Source of the DNA: a virus
IMG/VR virus record: IMGVR_UViG_3300017963_005353
Location: 19,526-83,525 of that record
DNA: 64,000 bases
Direction: 5' to 3' (one strand)
Shown: positions 19,319 to 49,086 of the stretch, piece after piece
How positions within the stretch are numbered: the stretch's first letter is position 1
How the letters are laid out: each line of letters opens with the position of its first letter
Notes under the pieces: model-generated
What the model was told of the DNA's origin: nothing
The model's input: the letters and a program-made list of their open reading frames with translations, nothing else
The model's database searches: none
Program-made: the position numbers and the translations under genes

Positions 19319-20193
19319 CTGTCTAGCCCTCCTGCCAGCACTTTGATAACCCGGTTTCTAAACTCCCTGTCAATGCCCCCGGGGTCATTTGCGGGGTTGA
19401 ACGGGTCGAACCACGGGTGCACCAGGAGCAAGTCAAGCATAAATTCATCCTCCGGTTGCTCTCCCCTGGCTTGCTCCACAAGCTGTCCAAAGGGCGTTGT
19501 GACTGACTGCCCGTCAGCACACAGCCCGCGCAAGAGCTTGTCGGGTGTGTACACCGCCCCCCTGTAGATCACCAGGTCGCCCCGTTCCTCTTTGCGGGGA
19601 GGCACCTGCCCGCCCGGAAAGAGAAAGGCCCGCTGCCTGGGATCCTCACCTTTTTTGATGACAAAGGGTCGTTCAAAGGGCTCGACGTGCATGGCGATGC
19701 TGCTGTAGCGTTTTTCAATGATGCGCCACAGGAGCTCGTCAAAGTTCAATGGGTCGCCTGTCTCGATGTCAATGTAGTAATAGCCCAAGTAAACGTCCAG
19801 CAAACGAAACCGGTTTGGGGCTTCGGGTATGGGAACGAATATGACCGTTGTGGCATGGGTGAGGCTGGTCTGGTGGTGGCCGTAGACGTATTCACAGGCC
19901 GGCAGGCCAATGCCCCGCAAGCAGGCGGCGAATATCCGGGCTGCCCCTCCACACCACGTACCCGCCTGCTCCCCAATGACCCGTTGAAACATGGTGGCGG
20001 CCGGCAGGTCGGGCGGCATGTTCGTGTGAGTGCCGGGGTAGGTCATGCGCCGGCCGAGCCAATGCCACAGGCAAAGGGCTGTTTCCCAGGTATCGAAGGG
20101 ATCGGTCATGCACAATTCTTGCAGCCCAGGGACAACAGCCTTGAGATAGTGCCCCAAGGTGTGTTCGTCTGTGATTTGCTCCAGGCTGATCAC
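19315..20193 (-). CDS. Transglutaminase-like (Cys-His-Asp) protein
   Basis: 292 residues. AGTWCGGAARIFAACLRGIGLPA around residue 95 gives the nucleophilic Cys, THATTVIF the His and LLDVYLGYYYID the Asp, so the full triad of the transglutaminase/peptidase-like fold is present. In other carbohydrate clusters such proteins occur next to glycosyltransferases and may act as peptidases or acyl/amide transferases. Exact reaction unknown. Confidence 0.65.
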   Translation of the reverse strand: MISLEQITDEHTLGHYLKAVVPGLQELCMTDPFDTWETALCLWHWLGRRMTYPGTHTNMPPDLPAATMFQRVIGEQAGTWCGGAARIFAACLRGIGLPACEYVYGHHQTSLTHATTVIFVPIPEAPNRFRLLDVYLGYYYIDIETGDPLNFDELLWRIIEKRYSSIAMHVEPFERPFVIKKGEDPRQRAFLFPGGQVPPRKEERGDLVIYRGAVYTPDKLLRGLCADGQSVTTPFGQLVEQARGEQPEDEFMLDLLLVHPWFDPFNPANDPGGIDREFRNRVIKVLAGGLDR

Positions 20194-22248: not shown

Positions 22249-22430
22249 CGGCAGCTCCCCAGGATGGCGACAAGGCTTTGCAGCATGCTCGAATCTGACA
22301 GCATAATAAGGGTAAGAAAGGCAAGAAGAAAATCGCACAGCATGGTGATGGCGACCAGGGCACCAATTGGAAGATCGTCGCTGCTCAGTTTGGTGATAGA
22401 CAAAAATAAACCTGCACAGATGGTCAACAC
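22245..22430 (-). CDS. Small membrane protein (61 aa)
   Basis: Starts at GTG 22430 inside the end of the carbamoyltransferase gene and ends overlapping the sulfotransferase start. Two hydrophobic stretches (LTICAGLFLSI and LVAITMLCDFLLAFLTLIML). One of three tiny membrane proteins in this operon. Confidence 0.5.
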   Translation of the reverse strand: MLTICAGLFLSITKLSSDDLPIGALVAITMLCDFLLAFLTLIMLSDSSMLQSLVAILGSCR

Positions 22431-24121
22431 GGCTCTCCCTCCTTCTCGAGCATGAACCAGCGCCCAAAGGCCAGGGTATCAATGCCCGACTGCTCAAATG
22501 TCTGCATGGCGTCGTAAGGGCTGCTGACGATGGGCTCCCCTCTCAGGTTAAACGACGTGTTCATAAGTAGGGGCACGTGGGTCAGGCGGTGAAACTCAGT
22601 GAGGATTTCAAACAAAAAGGGATTCTCGGTTTCGCTGACCGTTTGAATACGGCTCATCCCGTTGACGTGTACGACGGCCGGCACATGGTCGGGGTTGTAT
22701 GCTTGATGGGTGAGCATCATGTGGGCAGCGGATGGGCTGTTGAATGTCTCGAACCAGTATTTGGCATGTGTGTCCATCACAACCGGTGCAAACGGGCGGA
22801 AAGCCTCTCGAAACTTGACCTTGGCGTTCATGCGGTCTTTCATGCGGGCGTCTCGGGGGTCGGCCAGGATGGTGCGGTTGCCCAACGCCCGGTTGCCCCA
22901 TTCGTCTCTGCCCTGGTAGAGAGCCACGATCTTACCCTGGGCGAGTTGTCGTGCAATTTCTTGGGCATTTGATTCCTGTTGCGGGAACCAAGAACAATCT
23001 GCCAGGGTTTGTTCAATTATCCGGTCAGGATAGTCGATCCCCAGGTAGGGCGTGAAGGGATACCGACGCACGTTTGTTGGTGCACAATCGGCCAGATCGC
23101 CTATGATCGCCGCTCCCATGGCACAACCGGCGTCCCCTGCGGCCGGCTGTATCCACAGGGTCAGGTCGGGATTGCAGCGCAGTATCATGGCGTTCAACAC
23201 GCAATTGAGCGTCACGCCACCGGCCATGCACAGGTTTCGGTGGTTGCCCTGGCCCAGGAACAGTTGCACCATCCTGAGCACCGTCGTTTCCAGCGCATAT
23301 TGGACCGCTGCCGCCAGGTCCATGTGTTCCTGCTCGATGGGACCGCCCGGTTTTCGTGGGGGCACGCCCAACAGCTTTTCCAGGGCGGGCGTGTGGTGAC
23401 AATGGGGATTACACCAGTCGAAATACTTCTGGTCAAGCCCAAACGACCCATCGGCGTTGAGCAAGAGGATATTTTCCAGCAAGCGGTCAGCAAGCGGAAA
23501 CGCATCGCCCATGGCCGCCAGGCCCATGACCTTGAACTCCCCGTTGTTGGACCGGAAGCCCAGGTAGTTCGTCATGACCGAGTAGAGCAACCCTAGCGAG
23601 TGGGGAAAACTGATGGACTGGATCCGGTGCAAGTTGTTCCCTTCACCATTCCATACCGTCAACGTGTCCCACTCCCCAACGCCATCGATCACGAGCACCA
23701 ACGCCCGCTCAAAGGGAGACGTGAAAAACGTGGCAGCAGCGTGGCTCCTGTGGTGCTGCGCGTTGTAAATCGGTCCATTGTAACCGAGCAACCGCATGTG
23801 TGTCTCAATGCCCCGCTTGTGGTGATAGTGATAGGGTATCACATTGCGCCAATAATTCCAGGTGCCCGGCCAGCCATCGCGGGCCTGGGCGACAACACGC
23901 TCAAACTTAAAGTCGGGATCTTCGTGGAAGAAAACCTGGTCCACGTCGTCCCATTTCCAGCCACAATGCAGGAGCGCAGCTTGCAAGGCCAGTTGGGGGA
24001 ACCTGGCGTCGTGCTTGACACGGCTCAATCGCTCCTCCTGTATGGCAAACCGTATCTCGCCATTCTCTATCGCCACGACCGCCGAGTCGTGGTAAAAGCA
24101 CGACACGCCAATGGTTCTCAT
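22424..24121 (-). CDS. NodU/CmcH/TobZ-family O-carbamoyltransferase
   Basis: 565 residues, full length for the family. Uses carbamoyl phosphate and ATP to carbamoylate a sugar hydroxyl via carbamoyl-adenylate. N-terminal Kae1/YrdC-like fold starts with MRTIGVSCFYHDSAVV; the metal-binding HHRSHAAATFFTSPF lies near residue 120; a nucleotide region NLCMAGGVTLNC is near 300; C-terminal NTSFNLRGEPIV is typical. Known relatives decorate Nod factors, cephamycin and tobramycin. Here the substrate is probably the cyclic or pseudo-sugar made by the neighbours. Confidence 0.9.
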   Translation of the reverse strand: MRTIGVSCFYHDSAVVAIENGEIRFAIQEERLSRVKHDARFPQLALQAALLHCGWKWDDVDQVFFHEDPDFKFERVVAQARDGWPGTWNYWRNVIPYHYHHKRGIETHMRLLGYNGPIYNAQHHRSHAAATFFTSPFERALVLVIDGVGEWDTLTVWNGEGNNLHRIQSISFPHSLGLLYSVMTNYLGFRSNNGEFKVMGLAAMGDAFPLADRLLENILLLNADGSFGLDQKYFDWCNPHCHHTPALEKLLGVPPRKPGGPIEQEHMDLAAAVQYALETTVLRMVQLFLGQGNHRNLCMAGGVTLNCVLNAMILRCNPDLTLWIQPAAGDAGCAMGAAIIGDLADCAPTNVRRYPFTPYLGIDYPDRIIEQTLADCSWFPQQESNAQEIARQLAQGKIVALYQGRDEWGNRALGNRTILADPRDARMKDRMNAKVKFREAFRPFAPVVMDTHAKYWFETFNSPSAAHMMLTHQAYNPDHVPAVVHVNGMSRIQTVSETENPFLFEILTEFHRLTHVPLLMNTSFNLRGEPIVSSPYDAMQTFEQSGIDTLAFGRWFMLEKEGEPC

Positions 24122-34784: not shown

Positions 34785-35179
34785 AACTCTAGCCTCATCC
34801 AATGCCATTTGCCACGGATATACAATTCTGTGAACCCACGGGCCTCATAATGTTTCACGCGGCCAGGCCTGACCGCCACCTTGAGATGCGACAGCCCAAG
34901 CGACCTTGCCAACCCGATGCGCCGCTCTATCAATTCTCTGGCGATTCCCCGCCGCCTGAATTCTGGAAAGACATAGAGGTGGCAAAGCATTTTTCTCTTT
35001 GTCTTCAAAGCAGCGAATCCAGCAACGTCGGGGCCAGATATTGCCACAATCCAATAGGTAGAATCATCGCTGGACATGATCCCGCCAAGCTCTGAACGAA
35101 TCCCAGGATCGTAGCCATATCTACCTATATATTGCCACAAAGCATTGTCATTGTGATGCAAAGTGAGATATTTTATCAC
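34781..35179 (-). CDS. GNAT-family acetyltransferase
   Basis: 132 residues. LYVFPEFRRRGIARELIERRI is the acetyl-CoA pyrophosphate loop (R-x-x-G-x-A) of GNAT enzymes, with the final YEARGFTEL strand. Transfers acetyl from acetyl-CoA to an amine. It sits between the helicase and the dead helicase paralogue with overlapping ends. Substrate unknown, perhaps protein or modified base. Confidence 0.75.
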   Translation of the reverse strand: MIKYLTLHHNDNALWQYIGRYGYDPGIRSELGGIMSSDDSTYWIVAISGPDVAGFAALKTKRKMLCHLYVFPEFRRRGIARELIERRIGLARSLGLSHLKVAVRPGRVKHYEARGFTELYIRGKWHWMRLEL

Positions 35180-36192
35180 AGTTTTCTTACCAGTTCTCTG
35201 ATCTTCTCTTTGCCGCCATCCTTGACCCTATCGATTTCCCGTTTGAAAGCGCTGACGACACTTCCTTTTTCTTGCATGGCCCTGGCAATCCGAATATCAA
35301 TGCTGTCGTTGCAAACGATATCGATGTAGGTCACAGGCCGATCTTGTCCAATGCGGTGACAGCGATCCTCCGCCTGCAACCGCTCAGAATATTTAAAGCT
35401 ATTGCTGTAAAAAATCACATGGTTGGCCTCATTAAGCGTGAGACCATGCCCCCCGCTGGATTGAGTGGCGACCAGGAATCGCGCACCATCTCTGAACCGT
35501 GCAATCTCAGCGTTGCGCTCTTGTTCACCGAGGCCGCCATGAAATTGGGCGACTGCACCTCGGCCATATTCATCTGCCAGCGCCGCAACGATTTGGCAGA
35601 TACTATAACGGTATTTGCTCCAAACAATGATCTTTTCGCTCGCAGGAATATTGGCGACAATGTTCAACAAAACGTCGATCCGTTCGTGACCGCCAAATTC
35701 TAGAAGCTCAAATTGCGGTTCCCGAGACCTGTTTCTGGAAAAGGGGCTGTCCAACCGCCGATTCCAGAATCCACACGTGATCTGTTGCAGGGCGTTGAAC
35801 AGCCTGAAGATCACATAGCTGTCCAGGCCATCACTGTCTGGTATATCCATGAGCAACTCCCACTTGGCCCGTTCGTAATTCTCTCTCTGCTCATCGGTCA
35901 TGGAAAAATAGCGGGCGTCGTAGAGCTTTGGCGGCAAGTCCAGGCACTCATCTTTCGTTATTTGATACACGTATGGGCCTATCTTCGCCGCCAGCCAGCC
36001 CGTGTTGTGTGCTCGGACGATCAGGCCGGGATATTTCTCACTGTATTCCAGGTGATTGTGGGCAAATGAGTAGAACGAATTATAACCTAAAATCTTTGGG
36101 GACAAAAAGCGCATTTGGGCATAGAGATCGACAACGCCTTGAGTTAAGGGGGTCCCGGTCAGGATGGCCCGATACCGCGCTCGTTGAGCCAT
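35176..36192 (-). CDS. SNF2-type helicase, C-terminal part (frame-broken)
   Basis: As written begins at ATG 36192 (MAQRARYRAILTGTP), but the frame is open up to 36315 and codes for the Walker B region FVIVDESSYIKGHNAKRT upstream of this ATG. Motif III LTGTP, motif V SSGGHGLTLNEANHVIF and motif VI AEDRCHRIGQ identify the C-terminal RecA lobe of SNF2 ATPases. It is the continuation of the 36266-36901 frame after a +1 shift near 36301. Either the gene is broken, the sequence has an indel error, or frameshifting makes the full protein. Confidence 0.85.
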   Translation of the reverse strand: MAQRARYRAILTGTPLTQGVVDLYAQMRFLSPKILGYNSFYSFAHNHLEYSEKYPGLIVRAHNTGWLAAKIGPYVYQITKDECLDLPPKLYDARYFSMTDEQRENYERAKWELLMDIPDSDGLDSYVIFRLFNALQQITCGFWNRRLDSPFSRNRSREPQFELLEFGGHERIDVLLNIVANIPASEKIIVWSKYRYSICQIVAALADEYGRGAVAQFHGGLGEQERNAEIARFRDGARFLVATQSSGGHGLTLNEANHVIFYSNSFKYSERLQAEDRCHRIGQDRPVTYIDIVCNDSIDIRIARAMQEKGSVVSAFKREIDRVKDGGKEKIRELVRKL

Positions 36193-36265
36193 GTAGGTAA
36201 TACGCTTGGTGCGCTTGGCATTATGGCCCTTGATGTAGCTCGATTCGTCTACAATAACGAATGAG

Positions 36266-36901
36266 TCAGGGCCAATGATTTGATTGGTTTGCCAATACCA
36301 TTCTGTCGCTTGAGCTCATCGATTCTATGCCCACGATGTACCAACGAGTCGTGGGCTCATACAATGGCATCTTGCCGTCGAGGATGGCGATCGCACTGTC
36401 TGGTGTGTCAGTATGTTTCTGTATCTCATAGCGTATGGTCTCTTTGAGCGAAACGGGACAGAACCACACCACATTGCTAATGCGGCCCCGGCGCAGATGG
36501 GCCAATTCGATGGCGACGCGCGTCTTGCCTGTCCCCATCTCCATGAACAGGCCACAAACCCGCAGGCCAAGCAGCTTGTCCACGGCCCGCTGTTGGAAAT
36601 CATAGAGGCTCGTCTTTAAGTTCATCATGTTTTCAATGTCTGGGTTCGCAAATTCTACGCAATATCCGCCCTCAATCAAGGTGTGCCCGGTTTCCGCACA
36701 TCGATGCGCTGGATCTCCAGCCAATTTACCGATCTTTCTCTGCCAGCGCTTATTGGAGTGGCTCCAATAAAATCCGAGCCCCTTGATTAGAGTGCGGAAA
36801 TCGTCACGATATTCGGGGAATCTGACAAAGACGGTTTCCTCGGCTATTGACAGCATCGCTACCGTTTTTGTCTTTGGAGAGGGGGGCTTGATGATTGACA
36901 C
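36266..36901 (-). CDS. SNF2-type helicase, N-terminal part (frame-broken)
   Basis: 211 residues ending at a stop soon after IESMSSSDR. An N-terminal HARP-like or SF2 accessory region precedes a Q-like motif (LYDFQQRAVDKLL) and Walker A MEMGTGKTRVAIEL near residue 120. The frame fails before the Walker B box, which is found in another frame (see the C-terminal part). Together the two parts would give about 575 residues, a normal phage SNF2 helicase. First gene behind the 36.97-kb promoter. Confidence 0.8.
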   Translation of the reverse strand: MSIIKPPSPKTKTVAMLSIAEETVFVRFPEYRDDFRTLIKGLGFYWSHSNKRWQRKIGKLAGDPAHRCAETGHTLIEGGYCVEFANPDIENMMNLKTSLYDFQQRAVDKLLGLRVCGLFMEMGTGKTRVAIELAHLRRGRISNVVWFCPVSLKETIRYEIQKHTDTPDSAIAILDGKMPLYEPTTRWYIVGIESMSSSDRMVLANQSNHWP

Positions 36902-42354: not shown

Positions 42355-42578
42355 GGCCAAACTGGCCAAACAGATCGCCAAGGCCGGCCTCCCGGCCGGC
42401 GTGAATGAAGCTCCCCAACCTGTGGCCGGGGAGCTCTCAGTGAAGGGGCCAAGGGCTGACTAGCTCCGACAAACACGGGTCCATCTTCCCCCATGAGCCC
42501 TGCCAGTTTTCTTACACGTTCTTGCTGGAGAGCATCAAAGGTCTCATTTGCATTGTCTCGGTCAGCTCGTCTTTTCAT
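42330..42578 (-). CDS. Possible 82-residue protein downstream of the helicase loader
   Basis: Starts with an ATGA overlap on the loader stop, which supports translation. First 40 residues look ordinary (DNANETFDALQQERVRKLAG); the rest is Arg/Pro-rich as in an antisense shadow. Region also holds two hairpins (42382-42397, 42409-42435) where the two operons converge. Confidence 0.35.
   Translation of the reverse strand: MKRRADRDNANETFDALQQERVRKLAGLMGEDGPVFVGASQPLAPSLRAPRPQVGELHSRRPGGRPWRSVWPVWPQGRFLPS
42335..42463 (+). CDS. Possible 42-residue ORF at the end of the plus-strand operon
   Basis: ATG 42335 overlaps the previous gene by 20 bases, TAG at 42461-42463. The peptide (SDLEAKLAKQIAKAGLP...) has protein-like helical composition. 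No clear ribosome site. It competes with the minus-strand 82-residue frame for the same DNA, so only one of the two is likely real. Confidence 0.3.
   Translation: MAKSDLEAKLAKQIAKAGLPAGVNEAPQPVAGELSVKGPRAD
42382..42435. other. Two hairpins between convergent operons
   Basis: GGCCGG (382-387) pairs with CCGGCC (392-397); AGCTCCCC (409-416) pairs with GGGGAGCT (428-435). No U-tract on either strand, so they are not canonical terminators, but their position between convergent operons fits transcript ends or mRNA protection. Confidence 0.4.
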
Positions 42579-43300
42579 CCGGTATACTCCTGGGCCTCGT
42601 TGAGCACCAGCACACTACCCCTGTGGCTGATACGAGACCTGATCCGATCCTCCAACTCACTGATGGGACAATTGCTGGTGAACAAAGTTGGCTTGTCCCG
42701 CTCCAACCTGTGATCCACGAGCAGGTACATTTGCTCGTCTGTCCAGGCGGTGCGCTTCTCCACGCCCAGGTCGTCCACGATCAGGATGGGCACCGCCTGG
42801 AGCTTTGCCATGAGCGTGTTGACGGTCTCGTCCTCCCGGTCGTAACAGCCGCGCAGCATCGCCAGGAGTTCGACTGCCTTGCAAAAGAGCACAATCTCGC
42901 CCTTGCCGATCAGGTAGTTTGCAGCAGCGGCGGCCAGGTGGGTTTTACCGTTGCCCTTTGTCGGAGAATGGATCGTGAGGAAACCCTGGGGCTCTTGCGC
43001 CCATGCCAGTGCCGCGTTGAAGGCTTTCGTGGCGTATTTCGTCTCAGGGCCGTTCGTGTCGAACGTGTCAAACGTGCAGGTGGTCAGCCGGCCGTGCAGG
43101 GCAGACAGTCGGGACATGGATTGCCCCTCCATTTCCCTGGCGCGAACGAGCCCACAGGGACACGCCCGGAGGCCCTCTTCGGTGTACAGGTAGCCCATGC
43201 CCAGGCAGCGGTCGCACACCTGGCCGGTGCCGTTGCAGCGGGGACAGGAGAGGTCGAGTTGTCCGAGTGCCTGGCAGCGGGGGCAGCGTGTTTGGGTCAT
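42575..43300 (-). CDS. DnaC/IstB-like helicase loader
   Basis: 241 residues. N-terminal zinc motifs (CPRCNGTGQVCDRCLGMG, DnaJ-like), then an AAA+ domain: Walker A SPTKGNGKTHL near residue 110, Walker B ILIVDDLG near 172, sensor FTSNCP near 207. Loads the replicative helicase. Lies at the end of the replication operon, in the same order (initiator, then loader) as lambda O-P, though four genes separate them. Confidence 0.85.
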   Translation of the reverse strand: MTQTRCPRCQALGQLDLSCPRCNGTGQVCDRCLGMGYLYTEEGLRACPCGLVRAREMEGQSMSRLSALHGRLTTCTFDTFDTNGPETKYATKAFNAALAWAQEPQGFLTIHSPTKGNGKTHLAAAAANYLIGKGEIVLFCKAVELLAMLRGCYDREDETVNTLMAKLQAVPILIVDDLGVEKRTAWTDEQMYLLVDHRLERDKPTLFTSNCPISELEDRIRSRISHRGSVLVLNEAQEYTG

Positions 43301-43812
43301 TGCGCCCGCTCCGGCTCTTCAGTCTGATCCCGCCCAAAAAACTCGGACGCCCACATGAAATGACACCCGGCGTTCTCGGCGGCTTGCCTATCACTCTCCA
43401 TATCACCGACGTATAGTGTTTCATCTGGCGTCAGAGACCAGGATCTCATCAGTCGTTGGAGCATAAGGGGTTCTGGCTTCCGACACTTACAGTCCGCACC
43501 TGGGGCATGGGGACAAATCTGAAGAGCGCCTGTTGGGGGCCAACCATCGAAGACTTCCACAGCCATATCTTTGAGCAATTGATAAGCCATCTCTTCGGTC
43601 ATGTAGCCGAGGGCAATCCCGGCCTGATTGCTGGCGATTCCATACGCAATTCCACCAGCGTGAGGGGTGCCCCAAGGGATTCTTGCCAGGGTTGCTCTAA
43701 CATTGGGCAATAGCTCCCACTCATCTGGTGCATTAGGACATGGCTGTCCTTCCACTGTACAACGGCGCAATGTACCATCTGCATCAAAGATGATTAATTT
43801 GTAGTCTTTCAT
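43297..43812 (-). CDS. HAD-superfamily phosphatase (GmhB-like)
   Basis: 171 residues. FDADGTL motif I, ASNQ motif II, CPHAPGADCKCRKPEP with three Cys and a His for zinc as in GmhB, and VGDMESDRQAA motif IV. GmhB removes phosphate from heptose bisphosphate; related phage enzymes are DNA 3'-phosphatases. Being in the replication block, end-processing is possible. Confidence 0.75.
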   Translation of the reverse strand: MKDYKLIIFDADGTLRRCTVEGQPCPNAPDEWELLPNVRATLARIPWGTPHAGGIAYGIASNQAGIALGYMTEEMAYQLLKDMAVEVFDGWPPTGALQICPHAPGADCKCRKPEPLMLQRLMRSWSLTPDETLYVGDMESDRQAAENAGCHFMWASEFFGRDQTEEPERAQ

Positions 43813-44441: not shown

Positions 44442-45293
44442 TCAAATCTCCAATCTTGTGAACAGCTTCGCTTGATGCAGTCTATTTCTATTCAGTGCTT
44501 CAGTAGTGCGCGGCGACAGCCACACGCTCTCGATCCGCTTGCCGCCGCTGGTCTGTGCTTCCTTGTCGAACCGCTGCCAGCCATGGGCCTCGTAAAGCTC
44601 AGTGTACAATGGGCAGGCGTAGCCAGAAATGACAACGTAGCCTTGGCATTGGCGCAATAAGGTGGCAGCCTGAGCATGTTGGGCGACAGACCAGTCAAAA
44701 ATGTAGCGCCCCTGTCTCTCCCGTTCATCAGGGACATAAGGTGGGTCTAAATAATGCAGTGCGGCGGGATTGTCATATCGCCTTACGATCACATCGTAAT
44801 CATCGTGTTCGATCTGTACAGCTTGGAATCTCTCAGCTACTAATGACAAATGAGATATATTAAGCAAATCCTGTGGCCAATCCACTCCGTTTCTCGATGA
44901 TATATCTGTGATCGTCCGCCACCCGCCCCATTTTCCGCCAATGCCCATCCAGCACCATGAAAAGAAGCGCCTCGCTCTCTCTATTTCATCTTCGCAAGGC
45001 TCAAGGCTCAATTCATACCCGACTCTGGCCCACGGCGTCAACCGAATCTTACGGATCAATTCGTCTAGCCTATCTCTCAGCACGCGAAAGAAGTTGACCA
45101 CGTTGCCGTCAAGGTCGTTATAGGTTTCCAGCGGCGACCGTGGCTTTTGCAGCAGCACCGAGGCTGCTCCGCCGCATGGCTCGACGTAGTTCTGGTGTGG
45201 CGGAAAGAAGGAGATGATCCATGGCGCAAGCCGCCACTTTCCACCGTAGTAGCGCAATGCTGGTCGCTTCGGTGCATCTGGTGCTACCTTCAT
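44442..45293 (-). CDS. D12-class DNA adenine N6-methyltransferase
   Basis: 283 residues. SAM site YYGGKWRLAPWI at residue ~15; FVEPCGGAASVLL and catalytic DPPYVP near residue 185 define the D12 (Dam) class. Members usually methylate GATC. Its neighbour holds a cluster of four GATC sites in 40 bases, so the enzyme may mark the origin, or protect from restriction. Confidence 0.85.
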   Translation of the reverse strand: MKVAPDAPKRPALRYYGGKWRLAPWIISFFPPHQNYVEPCGGAASVLLQKPRSPLETYNDLDGNVVNFFRVLRDRLDELIRKIRLTPWARVGYELSLEPCEDEIERARRFFSWCWMGIGGKWGGWRTITDISSRNGVDWPQDLLNISHLSLVAERFQAVQIEHDDYDVIVRRYDNPAALHYLDPPYVPDERERQGRYIFDWSVAQHAQAATLLRQCQGYVVISGYACPLYTELYEAHGWQRFDKEAQTSGGKRIESVWLSPRTTEALNRNRLHQAKLFTRLEI

Positions 45294-45294
45294 A

Positions 45295-46353
45295 TCAAAC
45301 CTCCAATCTCGGCGGTGGCTCTTCCCGCTCTACCGCCACATTCTGATCTGGCCTACGCTCCAGGTCCAGGTCGGTCAGTCCATGCTCCATACCCCATTCG
45401 AGGAGGGGGGCCAGGAGCGATGACAAGCCCCTGAGCGGATCTCTCCTGTGGGCAAACAGACTGTCGGGCGTTGGATTCATCCAGGCGATGTTGCCCGGTA
45501 TCCACACACGGCGACCGTTGTCTTTGTTCAAAGCATAGGCGACAATCGCCCTACCCCACTGGTGCAATGCCCAGGCCAGTGTCTCGGCATTTGTGCCCCT
45601 GAGCTCTGCCAACCTTCGGAGCTCACGCGCCCAAGCCGTTTCTTCTGCTGAGGTCAGGTTGGCACGCTGGCGACCGATCAGATGGCACCATTGGGTCAGC
45701 GGGCCGTCTTTGTAGGCATCAGCACCGCCGGCCGTCTCAGGGACTGTGAAGGAGGTGGCGTCATTGGCTTTTCTGGCATGGGCAAGGAGCATACCCTCGG
45801 CAGGGTCTTTTCCAAACCTGGCTACTTGTCGTTCTTTCTGATTTTCCTGTTTTTGGGTTGGGGGGGAGGGTATAATTGACGGATCTTCTAACGGATCAAT
45901 GACGGATCTTGACGGATCATGCGACATAGCTGTGTCACTTATTTGGCCCTGGGTGTCACTTACCGTGGACAAATCTTGTTCATCCACAGTAGAAATGTCA
46001 CTTATCTGCTCCTGCACACTAAGTGACATTTTGTCACTTAGTGATTGGCCGGTGAACGCGACAACCCGTTTGTCGGCTTCCCTAAACCGCTGCTTGGTCA
46101 ATCCGACTAGTACCACATAAACATTGCCGCTGTTGCGACGATGAACGGCAGCAAGCTCTTCGGTTTCCTCAAGGCGTTGAATCAGCCGCTTGGTTTGTCG
46201 TTTGGACATTCGGATTTTTTGGGCCAGTGTATCAATGCTGGGCCAGCAAAATCCATTATCATCAGCAAAATCAGCGAAGGCGAGTAATAGCAGTAAGGGA
46301 GAACCCTTCATTTTGCTTTGTTCCCAAACGCGATTCATGCAGGCAATACTCAT
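45295..46353 (-). CDS. Replication initiator with N-terminal winged helix (lambda O / DnaD-like)
   Basis: 352 residues from ATG 46353 (AAAGGAAC upstream). N-terminal helix-turn-helix region (ADDNGFCWPSIDTLAQKI, RMSKRQTKRLIQRL) is that of phage replication initiators; a low-complexity Ser/Asp/Gln linker spans residues ~110-160; a helical C-terminal domain follows. The linker DNA contains the iterons described separately, as in lambda O. Binding these is the expected first step of phage replication. Confidence 0.75.
   Translation of the reverse strand: MSIACMNRVWEQSKMKGSPLLLLLAFADFADDNGFCWPSIDTLAQKIRMSKRQTKRLIQRLEETEELAAVHRRNSGNVYVVLVGLTKQRFREADKRVVAFTGQSLSDKMSLSVQEQISDISTVDEQDLSTVSDTQGQISDTAMSHDPSRSVIDPLEDPSIIPSPPTQKQENQKERQVARFGKDPAEGMLLAHARKANDATSFTVPETAGGADAYKDGPLTQWCHLIGRQRANLTSAEETAWARELRRLAELRGTNAETLAWALHQWGRAIVAYALNKDNGRRVWIPGNIAWMNPTPDSLFAHRRDPLRGLSSLLAPLLEWGMEHGLTDLDLERRPDQNVAVEREEPPPRLEV
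45879..46043. other. Putative replication origin (iterons inside the initiator gene)
   Basis: Four ACGGATC repeats at 879-885, 891-897, 902-908 and 912-918 (each with GATC), and five TGTCACTTA iterons at 45933-45941, 45954-45962, 45996-46004, 46020-46028 (inverted) and 46032-46040. The last two form a perfect 12-bp arm dyad around a TTT. Spacings of 21 and 42 bases are whole helical turns. TCATCCACA at 45980-45988 is one base from a DnaA box. Confidence 0.7.
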
Positions 46354-47937: not shown

Positions 47938-49086
47938 TCAATTCGGCATACTTCTCAAGCTCATAGGCATGAGCACATGCCTGAAGCTGTCGCCCTCCAC
48001 ACCGGCCGGCCTCATCAGCGCCGGGCTCGTGCTCTCCGTCGTGAGCAACTCCACGTGCTCGCTGCTCATCACGCCCAGCGCCTCCAGGAAAAACCGGGCG
48101 TTGAACGCGATGTCCAACTCGCGGTCCTTGTCCCCATGGGCCTCGACCTGGGCAGGGATGGTGGCGTTTGTGCCGCCCATCTCGTCGGTATTGGCTATGA
48201 CCGTCAGGTGGTCGTCCCGTATCTCCAGGCGCATGATCTCGGCCTGGAGCCTGGCGAAAATGCGGGCCGTCTTGCAGACGCGCTCCAGGTCGGCAGTCTT
48301 GACCACCGTTTTCATGTCGTACCCGGAGGGGACGATTTGGTTGTAGTCCGGGAACTTGCCAGCGATGGCTTGCGCCACCAGGTCCACGGAGGCCATACGG
48401 AAGGCGATCCGGGTGTCGGTGTCAACGTAGATTTGCACCTCCTCGTCTCTGGGTATCCTGAGCTTGGAAAAGCCCCACGCCGGCACGATCACCGCCTGCG
48501 GCTCCCAGGCTTTGCCGTCGAAGTGCTCTTTCACGACCGACAGACGAAACCCGTCGGCGGCGGCCATCGTGAGTTCGTCCCCGTCGAATCTCATCAGCAC
48601 GCCGGTCAAGGTCGGGCGTCCGCTGTCACGATCCGCCGTGGCGATCAGGCACCGGCCCGTCATGGTTTCCAACACATCGCCCGGCAATGTGGCGAGGTGG
48701 CTCCCCTGGGCGAACTCTGGGGCCAGGGGGAACTCCTCGGCGGGGACGCACTGGATCGTGGCTTTGTTGTTGGCGCATTGGACAGAGAGTTCGCTTTGGG
48801 CGAGGTTGAGCTCAAAGTCAACGCGCTCTTTGGGCAGGCTGTTCACCAGGTCCAGGAACAGCTTGGCGGGCACGGTCGTCTCGCCGGGCGCGTCCACTTT
48901 TTTCGCCCCGACCCTGCAATCCAGCCTAATCTCCAGGTCGGTGCCGGCCAGCGTCACATGGTCGGATTCGGTCGCTTGCAGATAGACGTTGCTCAGGACC
49001 GGGGGATGATAGGCTCCCCGCTCAATGGCCGGAGAAACGGTTCTCAGGCCGGCGGCCAGGTTCTCTTGCAACACTTGGAATTTCAT
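47938..49086 (-). CDS. dnaN: DNA polymerase III beta subunit (sliding clamp)
   Basis: 382 residues, full length for three-domain beta clamps. MKFQVLQENLAAGLRTVSPAI start, VLSNVYLQATESDHVTLAGTDLEI in domain 1, AADGFRLSVVKEHF in domain 2 and the C-terminal MPMSLRS ending match DnaN. It tethers the polymerase to DNA. A phage-coded clamp suggests its own or a host replicase uses it; no polymerase gene is in the window. Confidence 0.9.
   Translation of the reverse strand: MKFQVLQENLAAGLRTVSPAIERGAYHPPVLSNVYLQATESDHVTLAGTDLEIRLDCRVGAKKVDAPGETTVPAKLFLDLVNSLPKERVDFELNLAQSELSVQCANNKATIQCVPAEEFPLAPEFAQGSHLATLPGDVLETMTGRCLIATADRDSGRPTLTGVLMRFDGDELTMAAADGFRLSVVKEHFDGKAWEPQAVIVPAWGFSKLRIPRDEEVQIYVDTDTRIAFRMASVDLVAQAIAGKFPDYNQIVPSGYDMKTVVKTADLERVCKTARIFARLQAEIMRLEIRDDHLTVIANTDEMGGTNATIPAQVEAHGDKDRELDIAFNARFFLEALGVMSSEHVELLTTESTSPALMRPAGVEGDSFRHVLMPMSLRSMPN

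Follow-up and report, generated by a model that had tools for sequence, protein, structure and literature searches.

The linker of a lambda-O-like initiator gene in this virus probably contains a phage replication origin, in which iterons would be bound by the N-domain of the initiator and a phased array of GATCCGTCA would serve as a second origin element. The window, the whole stretch of DNA that was analyzed, is 64,000 nucleotides long and covers positions 19526–83525 of an 83,525-bp virus record. The locus is likely of a known kind, an in-gene origin of the lambda-O/RepA type, with a conserved second array alongside. Judged by comparison with other phages, the GATC repeats of this array are one spelling of a short phased repeat common to many unrelated phages. 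An earlier note on this DNA had proposed an in-gene origin “as in lambda O”; this is well supported by the O-like family matches, the codon controls, the recurrence of the iterons and the match of the N-domain model.

The initiator gene is encoded on the minus strand at 45295..46353, with its ATG at 46353 and its stop at 45295. The product of 352 residues consists of a winged-helix N-domain (HTH_36, E 1.3e-11 in Pfam), the linker with the putative origin and a C-domain. Residues 2–252 match phrog_391, “replication initiation O-like” (E 3e-18), which makes the protein a member of the O-like family, and a further twelve families, of phage initiators or HTH proteins, match as well. Residues 1–100 have a pLDDT of 85 in an AlphaFold model built from the window and locus sequences. 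When this N-domain model was compared with the PDB using Foldseek, the top match was the N-domain of a plasmid initiator (4pql, E 5.8e-4), with 4pt7 at E 4e-3. No close relatives of the initiator were found in the viral contigs, genome contigs or named phages searched, and the terminase-related records (L004 and L005) contain no match to either the initiator or the methylase.

The genes on this strand follow the order sliding clamp, T5orf172 protein, initiator, D12 methylase, phrog_874 protein, HAD/PNK3P phosphatase and DnaC-like loader. The phage DNA polymerase sliding clamp lies upstream (DnaN-like; 47938..49086, minus strand; Pfam 1.2e-25, phrog_947 3.3e-60). A helicase loader encoded in the operon of the initiator is characteristic of in-gene origins of the lambda-O type, and a DnaC-like one is found here at 42575..43300 on the minus strand (phrog_50, 1.5e-46). 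As the earlier note had stated, a D12-class adenine methylase gene is directly downstream of the initiator: it occupies 44442..45293 on the minus strand, begins 1 nt past the initiator stop and matches MethyltransfD12 (Pfam, 3.3e-19) and phrog_56 (3.9e-60). In three other records (L300, L301 and L308), too, an O-like initiator is directly followed by a gene annotated as a methylase: the label is DNA (adenine) methylase for the Klebsiella and E. coli phages among them and DNA methylase for the one from Arthrobacter; therefore, the adjacency of initiator and methylase recurs. A HAD-family/polynucleotide kinase 3′-phosphatase-like gene (43297–43812) separates the methylase region from the loader gene. 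Elsewhere in the window are a NodU-like carbamoyltransferase gene with both Pfam N- and C-domains intact (22424–24121), two neighboring ORFs that match separate parts of the phage SNF2-type helicase family phrog_62, either a split gene or a frameshift (35176–36901), and a match to the Gp3-like recombination directionality factor family (PF18897, 51891–53213), which hints at a temperate life style.

All of the repeats lie inside the initiator ORF, approximately 300–480 nt into the coding sequence, and the several iterons occupy the central linker of the gene, as in origins of the lambda-O type. A pattern search located five copies of TAAGTGACA on the minus strand (TGTCACTTA on the plus strand) at 45933..46040. 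In the plus-strand spelling the copies start at 45933, 45954, 45996 and 46032, with an inverted copy starting at 46020, and the spacings of iterons on the same face are 21 and 42 bp. Nowhere else in the 83,525-bp record is there an exact copy, and a control search with the backwards pattern gave none. Two of the iterons make up a perfect 12-bp dyad with a 3-bp gap (46017–46028 / 46032–46043), and the five iterons and dyad reported earlier are thus confirmed as exact copies. The near DnaA box reported in the linker is also present: TCATCCACA, at 45980–45988 on the plus strand among the iterons, has one mismatch to TTATCCACA and is DnaA-box-like as read from the sequence.

The second array, GATCCGTCA, GATCCGTCA, GATCCGTTA, GATCCGTCA, is situated at 45877..45918 on the minus strand with spacings of 10, 11 and 12 bp. 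It had been described as four ACGGATC repeats 10–12 bp apart; the four copies (45879, 45891, 45902 and 45912) and their spacing stand, but the unit is not 7 bp long, as the gene strand has a 9-bp unit, three times GATCCGTCA and once GATCCGTTA. The four GATC sites of the array fall within 33 bp, the next tightest four in the record spanning 98 bp. Directly beside the array is a G-tract, GGGTTGGGGGGGAGGG, read as a quadruplex-type motif (45855..45870, plus strand), and next to this, on the gene strand, comes an A-rich tract (45830–45854). In 50-bp windows the linker region is about 1–2 sd less stable than the record mean; its A-rich tract is short, and there is no long AT tract. The GC-skew check suggested in the earlier note gave no turn at the locus, the skew tracking gene direction instead.

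Both sets of repeats were compared with controls that preserve the protein. When codons were redrawn from phage usage with the protein fixed, 5000 draws yielded a maximum of 2 TGTCACTTA and a maximum of 2 ACGGATC. When synonymous codons were shuffled among the positions of the linker, no draw exceeded 3 TGTCACTTA, while four ACGGATC appeared in 0.08% of draws. Because the iterons and the array exceed these codon-preserving controls, both are constrained at the DNA level.

The same iteron is found beside the initiators of other prophages. A scan for paired TGTCACTTA returned many matches unrelated to initiators, and the ones kept were those in which the copies cluster next to an HTH gene. Five copies of TGTCACTTA recur directly behind the HTH initiators of other prophages on IMG/VR contigs (L030, L041, L050 and their kin). 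The prophage family that carries the iteron (L014, L027, L030, L035, L041, L042, L047, L050 and others in IMG/VR) has an HTH initiator of 121–143 residues with four or five GTCTAAGTGACA repeats behind it; in L030 and L041, DnaA boxes lie between the repeats. The contigs L030, L041, L050 and their kin are apparent minimal origin cassettes, and the sequences of these iteron-bearing prophages suggest that they are actinobacterial. A marine initiator (L034) has two iteron copies in its linker. This recurrence beside HTH initiators supports a replication role for the iterons.

The second array is likewise shared, and by a wider range of initiators. A scan for paired GATCCGTCA found at least 120 contigs, from which 80 loci with 16 distinct spacer types were examined. 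Repetitive coding sequence aside (e.g., collagen-like), these loci are mostly HTH replication initiators of clearly different families, and in eight initiators with the pair (L060, L064, L081, L085, L104, L106, L108 and L134) it follows iterons that differ between families. No GATCCGTCA pair was found in 369 bacterial genomes, and therefore it is uncommon outside phages; among 143 genomes, phrog_391 had only ten matches.

A further set of initiators was collected through the protein similarity of their N-domains alone, without reference to the motif, and was reduced to 53 representatives. Their linkers hold GAACCGTCA, GAACCATCA, TAACCGTCA, GATCCGTCA and similar units at 10–13-bp spacing. The shared consensus is GA(A/T)CC(G/A)TCA, phased at 10–13 bp and typically placed right after the family-specific iterons. 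Without L217, which duplicates a seed that had been chosen by the motif, a phased [AT]CC[GA]TCA pair is present in 24 of 52 initiators, against 0.56 in a synonymous-shuffle null (sd 0.71, maximum 4 in 300), the motif and its statistics having been devised after the data were seen. The pair occurs in 0 of 439 other ORFs, controls that come from the same loci, and in the antisense orientation the count is also 0. The 61 copies are divided among the three reading frames as 39/16/6 and are mostly spaced 11–12 bp apart; in 61/61 an A precedes W. With a relaxed unit, at least one copy is present in the expected interval in 43/53 initiators and a pair one or two turns apart in 28/53, the clean AWCCRTCA pair being absent from about half of the sampled initiators. 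Chains of at least two GAWCC are found in 33/53 (null 10.9) and of at least three in 10/53 (null 1.2), with 1/444 and 0/444 in control ORFs. Chains of at least three also occur in four phages of a small, hand-picked sample of 18 named phages (null 0.29).

Named carriers of the element include P. aeruginosa PP9W2, Itty13, E. coli mEp460 (GAACCAGTCA), Arthrobacter Polka, SfII and Klebsiella 1 LV-2017. Polka has GAACCGTCC three times at spacings of 11 and 11, and SfII and Klebsiella 1 LV-2017 have the GATC form. Among the named phages the element is absent from GF-2, KS9, WCHABP12 and others. The relatives of the methylase (L051–L054) were considered as kin of the locus and set aside, their initiators having other iterons and other second arrays. 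In two of these (L051 3859–4701; L053 8501–9394) the initiator iterons are followed by other short-period arrays (CAGAGACAGATA and CAGAAT); the slot for a second array is filled by other sequences as well. No description of the second element was found in the part of the open-access literature that was searched.

From the repeats, their constraint at the DNA level, the gene neighborhood and the recurrence of both elements, we infer initiator binding, origin opening and helicase loading. The winged-helix N-domain would load on the five TAAGTGACA iterons and the dyad, and the iteron-bound initiator would nucleate opening at or beside the GATCCGTCA array and the adjoining A-rich tract at 45830–45854. 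The array could be used in one of two ways: the initiator may extend along it, or a host factor may recognize it. The DnaC-like loader would then bring DnaB to the opened origin. The initiators that share the element differ in their iterons, C-domains and partners, a phage DnaB adjoining in PP9W2 and a DnaC-like loader here; as the array is common to them all, something common may read it. A broader and tentative proposal, somewhat less likely than not, is that HTH-type in-gene origins of proteobacterial and actinobacterial phages share a second phased element (GAWCCRTCA / GAACCGTCC, 10–13 bp) that is read by a conserved host replication factor, or through a common property of the initiator filament, to open the origin.

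The earlier note had suggested that methylation could gate initiation. According to that reading, the four GATC sites are targets of the neighboring D12 enzyme or of the Dam of the host, and their methylation state controls initiator binding or strand opening, on the model of E. coli oriC, P1 oriR or V. cholerae oriII. Such an origin is expected to have dense GATC sites, and here all four copies of the array (4/4) hold GATC in the tightest cluster of the record, with the D12 gene immediately downstream of the initiator. There are also precedents, since in V. cholerae oriII the GATC-containing initiator sites bind RctB only if methylated (PMC2865523). P1 oriR has GATC sites 7, 10, 11 and 23 bp apart beside the RepA iterons, and the phage encodes the methylase dmt. 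SfII-like phages retain GATC in both copies of the element with a methylase gene adjoining; both copies contain GATC in Klebsiella phage 1 LV-2017, where an adenine methylase follows the initiator, and in E. coli phage 733R5, where a putative DNA methylase does; these last two preserve GATC even with a neighboring base altered. However, a methylation-controlled origin is also expected to conserve GATC in homologous elements, and GATC is found within only 6/61 copies (~10%), most other phages having GAACC, the commonest version. Phages of Dam+ hosts have both forms (GATC in SfII, GAACC in mEp460), as do phages of Dam− hosts (GATC in the P. aeruginosa phage 5400 family, GAACC in PP9W2). The enzyme had been called “Dam-like”: it does belong to the D12 fold family (PF02086, 3.3e-19) and retains the DPPY motif, but it scores 57.8 bits against the cut-off of 114.85 for the Dam subfamily (TIGR00571), and alignments place GGWRTITDISSRNGVDWPQ where Dam and DpnM have their common target-reading block, R-x-N...FNVPxGRY. 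In F116, MMP7 and Sansa, related methylases have unrelated genes as neighbors, and the L051 methylase is 66% identical, yet GATC is absent from the linker repeats of its initiator. The record as a whole neither avoids nor enriches GATC (435 observed, 435 expected), and a crude motif test gave no association of GATC-type arrays with a nearby methylase-like ORF (1/7 vs 10/36 for non-GATC arrays). Because GATC appears to be one spelling of a widely shared repeat, service as a methylation switch is probably not the main role of the array, and methylation control is a minor possibility and an unlikely one. In the preferred explanation, which we regard as probable, GATC is a side effect of the T variant of the element, not its conserved feature.

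The array could instead be a feature of the protein, an E/D-P-S short linear motif that contacts the helicase or loader, with the DNA repeats as a by-product. The peptide recurs in many initiators, and 39/61 copies read D/E-P-S in frame, but 22/61 are in other frames, including one of the four GATCCGT copies here. The Ser codon of [E/D]PS is TCA in 44/47 cases, against a background of 13% elsewhere in the same genes, and the pairs are lost in codon shuffles that preserve the protein; this reading is quite improbable. Slightly less probable again is that the repeats are no origin but an operator through which the initiator gene is autoregulated. Operators of iteron plasmids contain inverted repeats, which can act as operator and origin both, and the two-iteron dyad resembles them. 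Nevertheless, the repeats are located some 300–480 nt inside the coding sequence, distant from a promoter, and the initiator is of the O-like family with a DnaC-like loader and a clamp in its operon.

Lambda and a handful of other phages are known to have in-gene origins, which have usually been described through their own iterons. A second element across initiators with different iterons offers a sequence signature by which origins may be located in uncultured phages, and poses the direct question of what reads the array. If the broader proposal is true, phage replication origins have in this element a general component that has gone unrecognized, independent of which iterons or helicase-loading partner they use. 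The main reason to invoke methylation at this locus is removed, and the SfII-like phages are best suited to a test of that idea.

The lambda origin within gene O, and those of Stx phages, have been described (PMC7466680). The present locus resembles the lambda origin in having iterons in the middle of the linker of the initiator gene and a helicase-loading partner encoded downstream. Lambda has four palindromic iterons and then an AT-rich tract, whereas here there are different 9-bp iterons and a dyad, and the phased GATCCGTCA array replaces the long AT-rich tract; the loader is DnaC-like, with the methylase gene in between. P1 oriR shares iterons approximately 21 bp apart beside a GATC array of approximately 10–11 bp, a DnaA box and a phage-encoded GATC methylase, but it lies outside the initiator gene and its array unit is GGATCT, not GATCCGTCA. 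In P1 the specificity of the methylase is known. V. cholerae oriII (RctB) also has GATC-containing repeats in an iteron-type origin, although there GATC is in the initiator’s own sites and methylation is required (PMC2865523), whereas the iterons here are without GATC. Plasmid RepA-type initiators (PDB 4pql, 4pt7 and 5kbj) have the closest N-domain fold by Foldseek, an iteron-binding winged helix, at 14% identity (E 5.8e-4) and in plasmids as opposed to a phage. As here, the initiator of SfII, Klebsiella phage 1 LV-2017 and E. coli phage 733R5 is O-like, its family-specific iterons precede GATCCGTCA-type copies, and a methylase gene lies downstream; these phages differ in having two copies 24 bp apart, other iterons and a C-domain of the lambda-O type.
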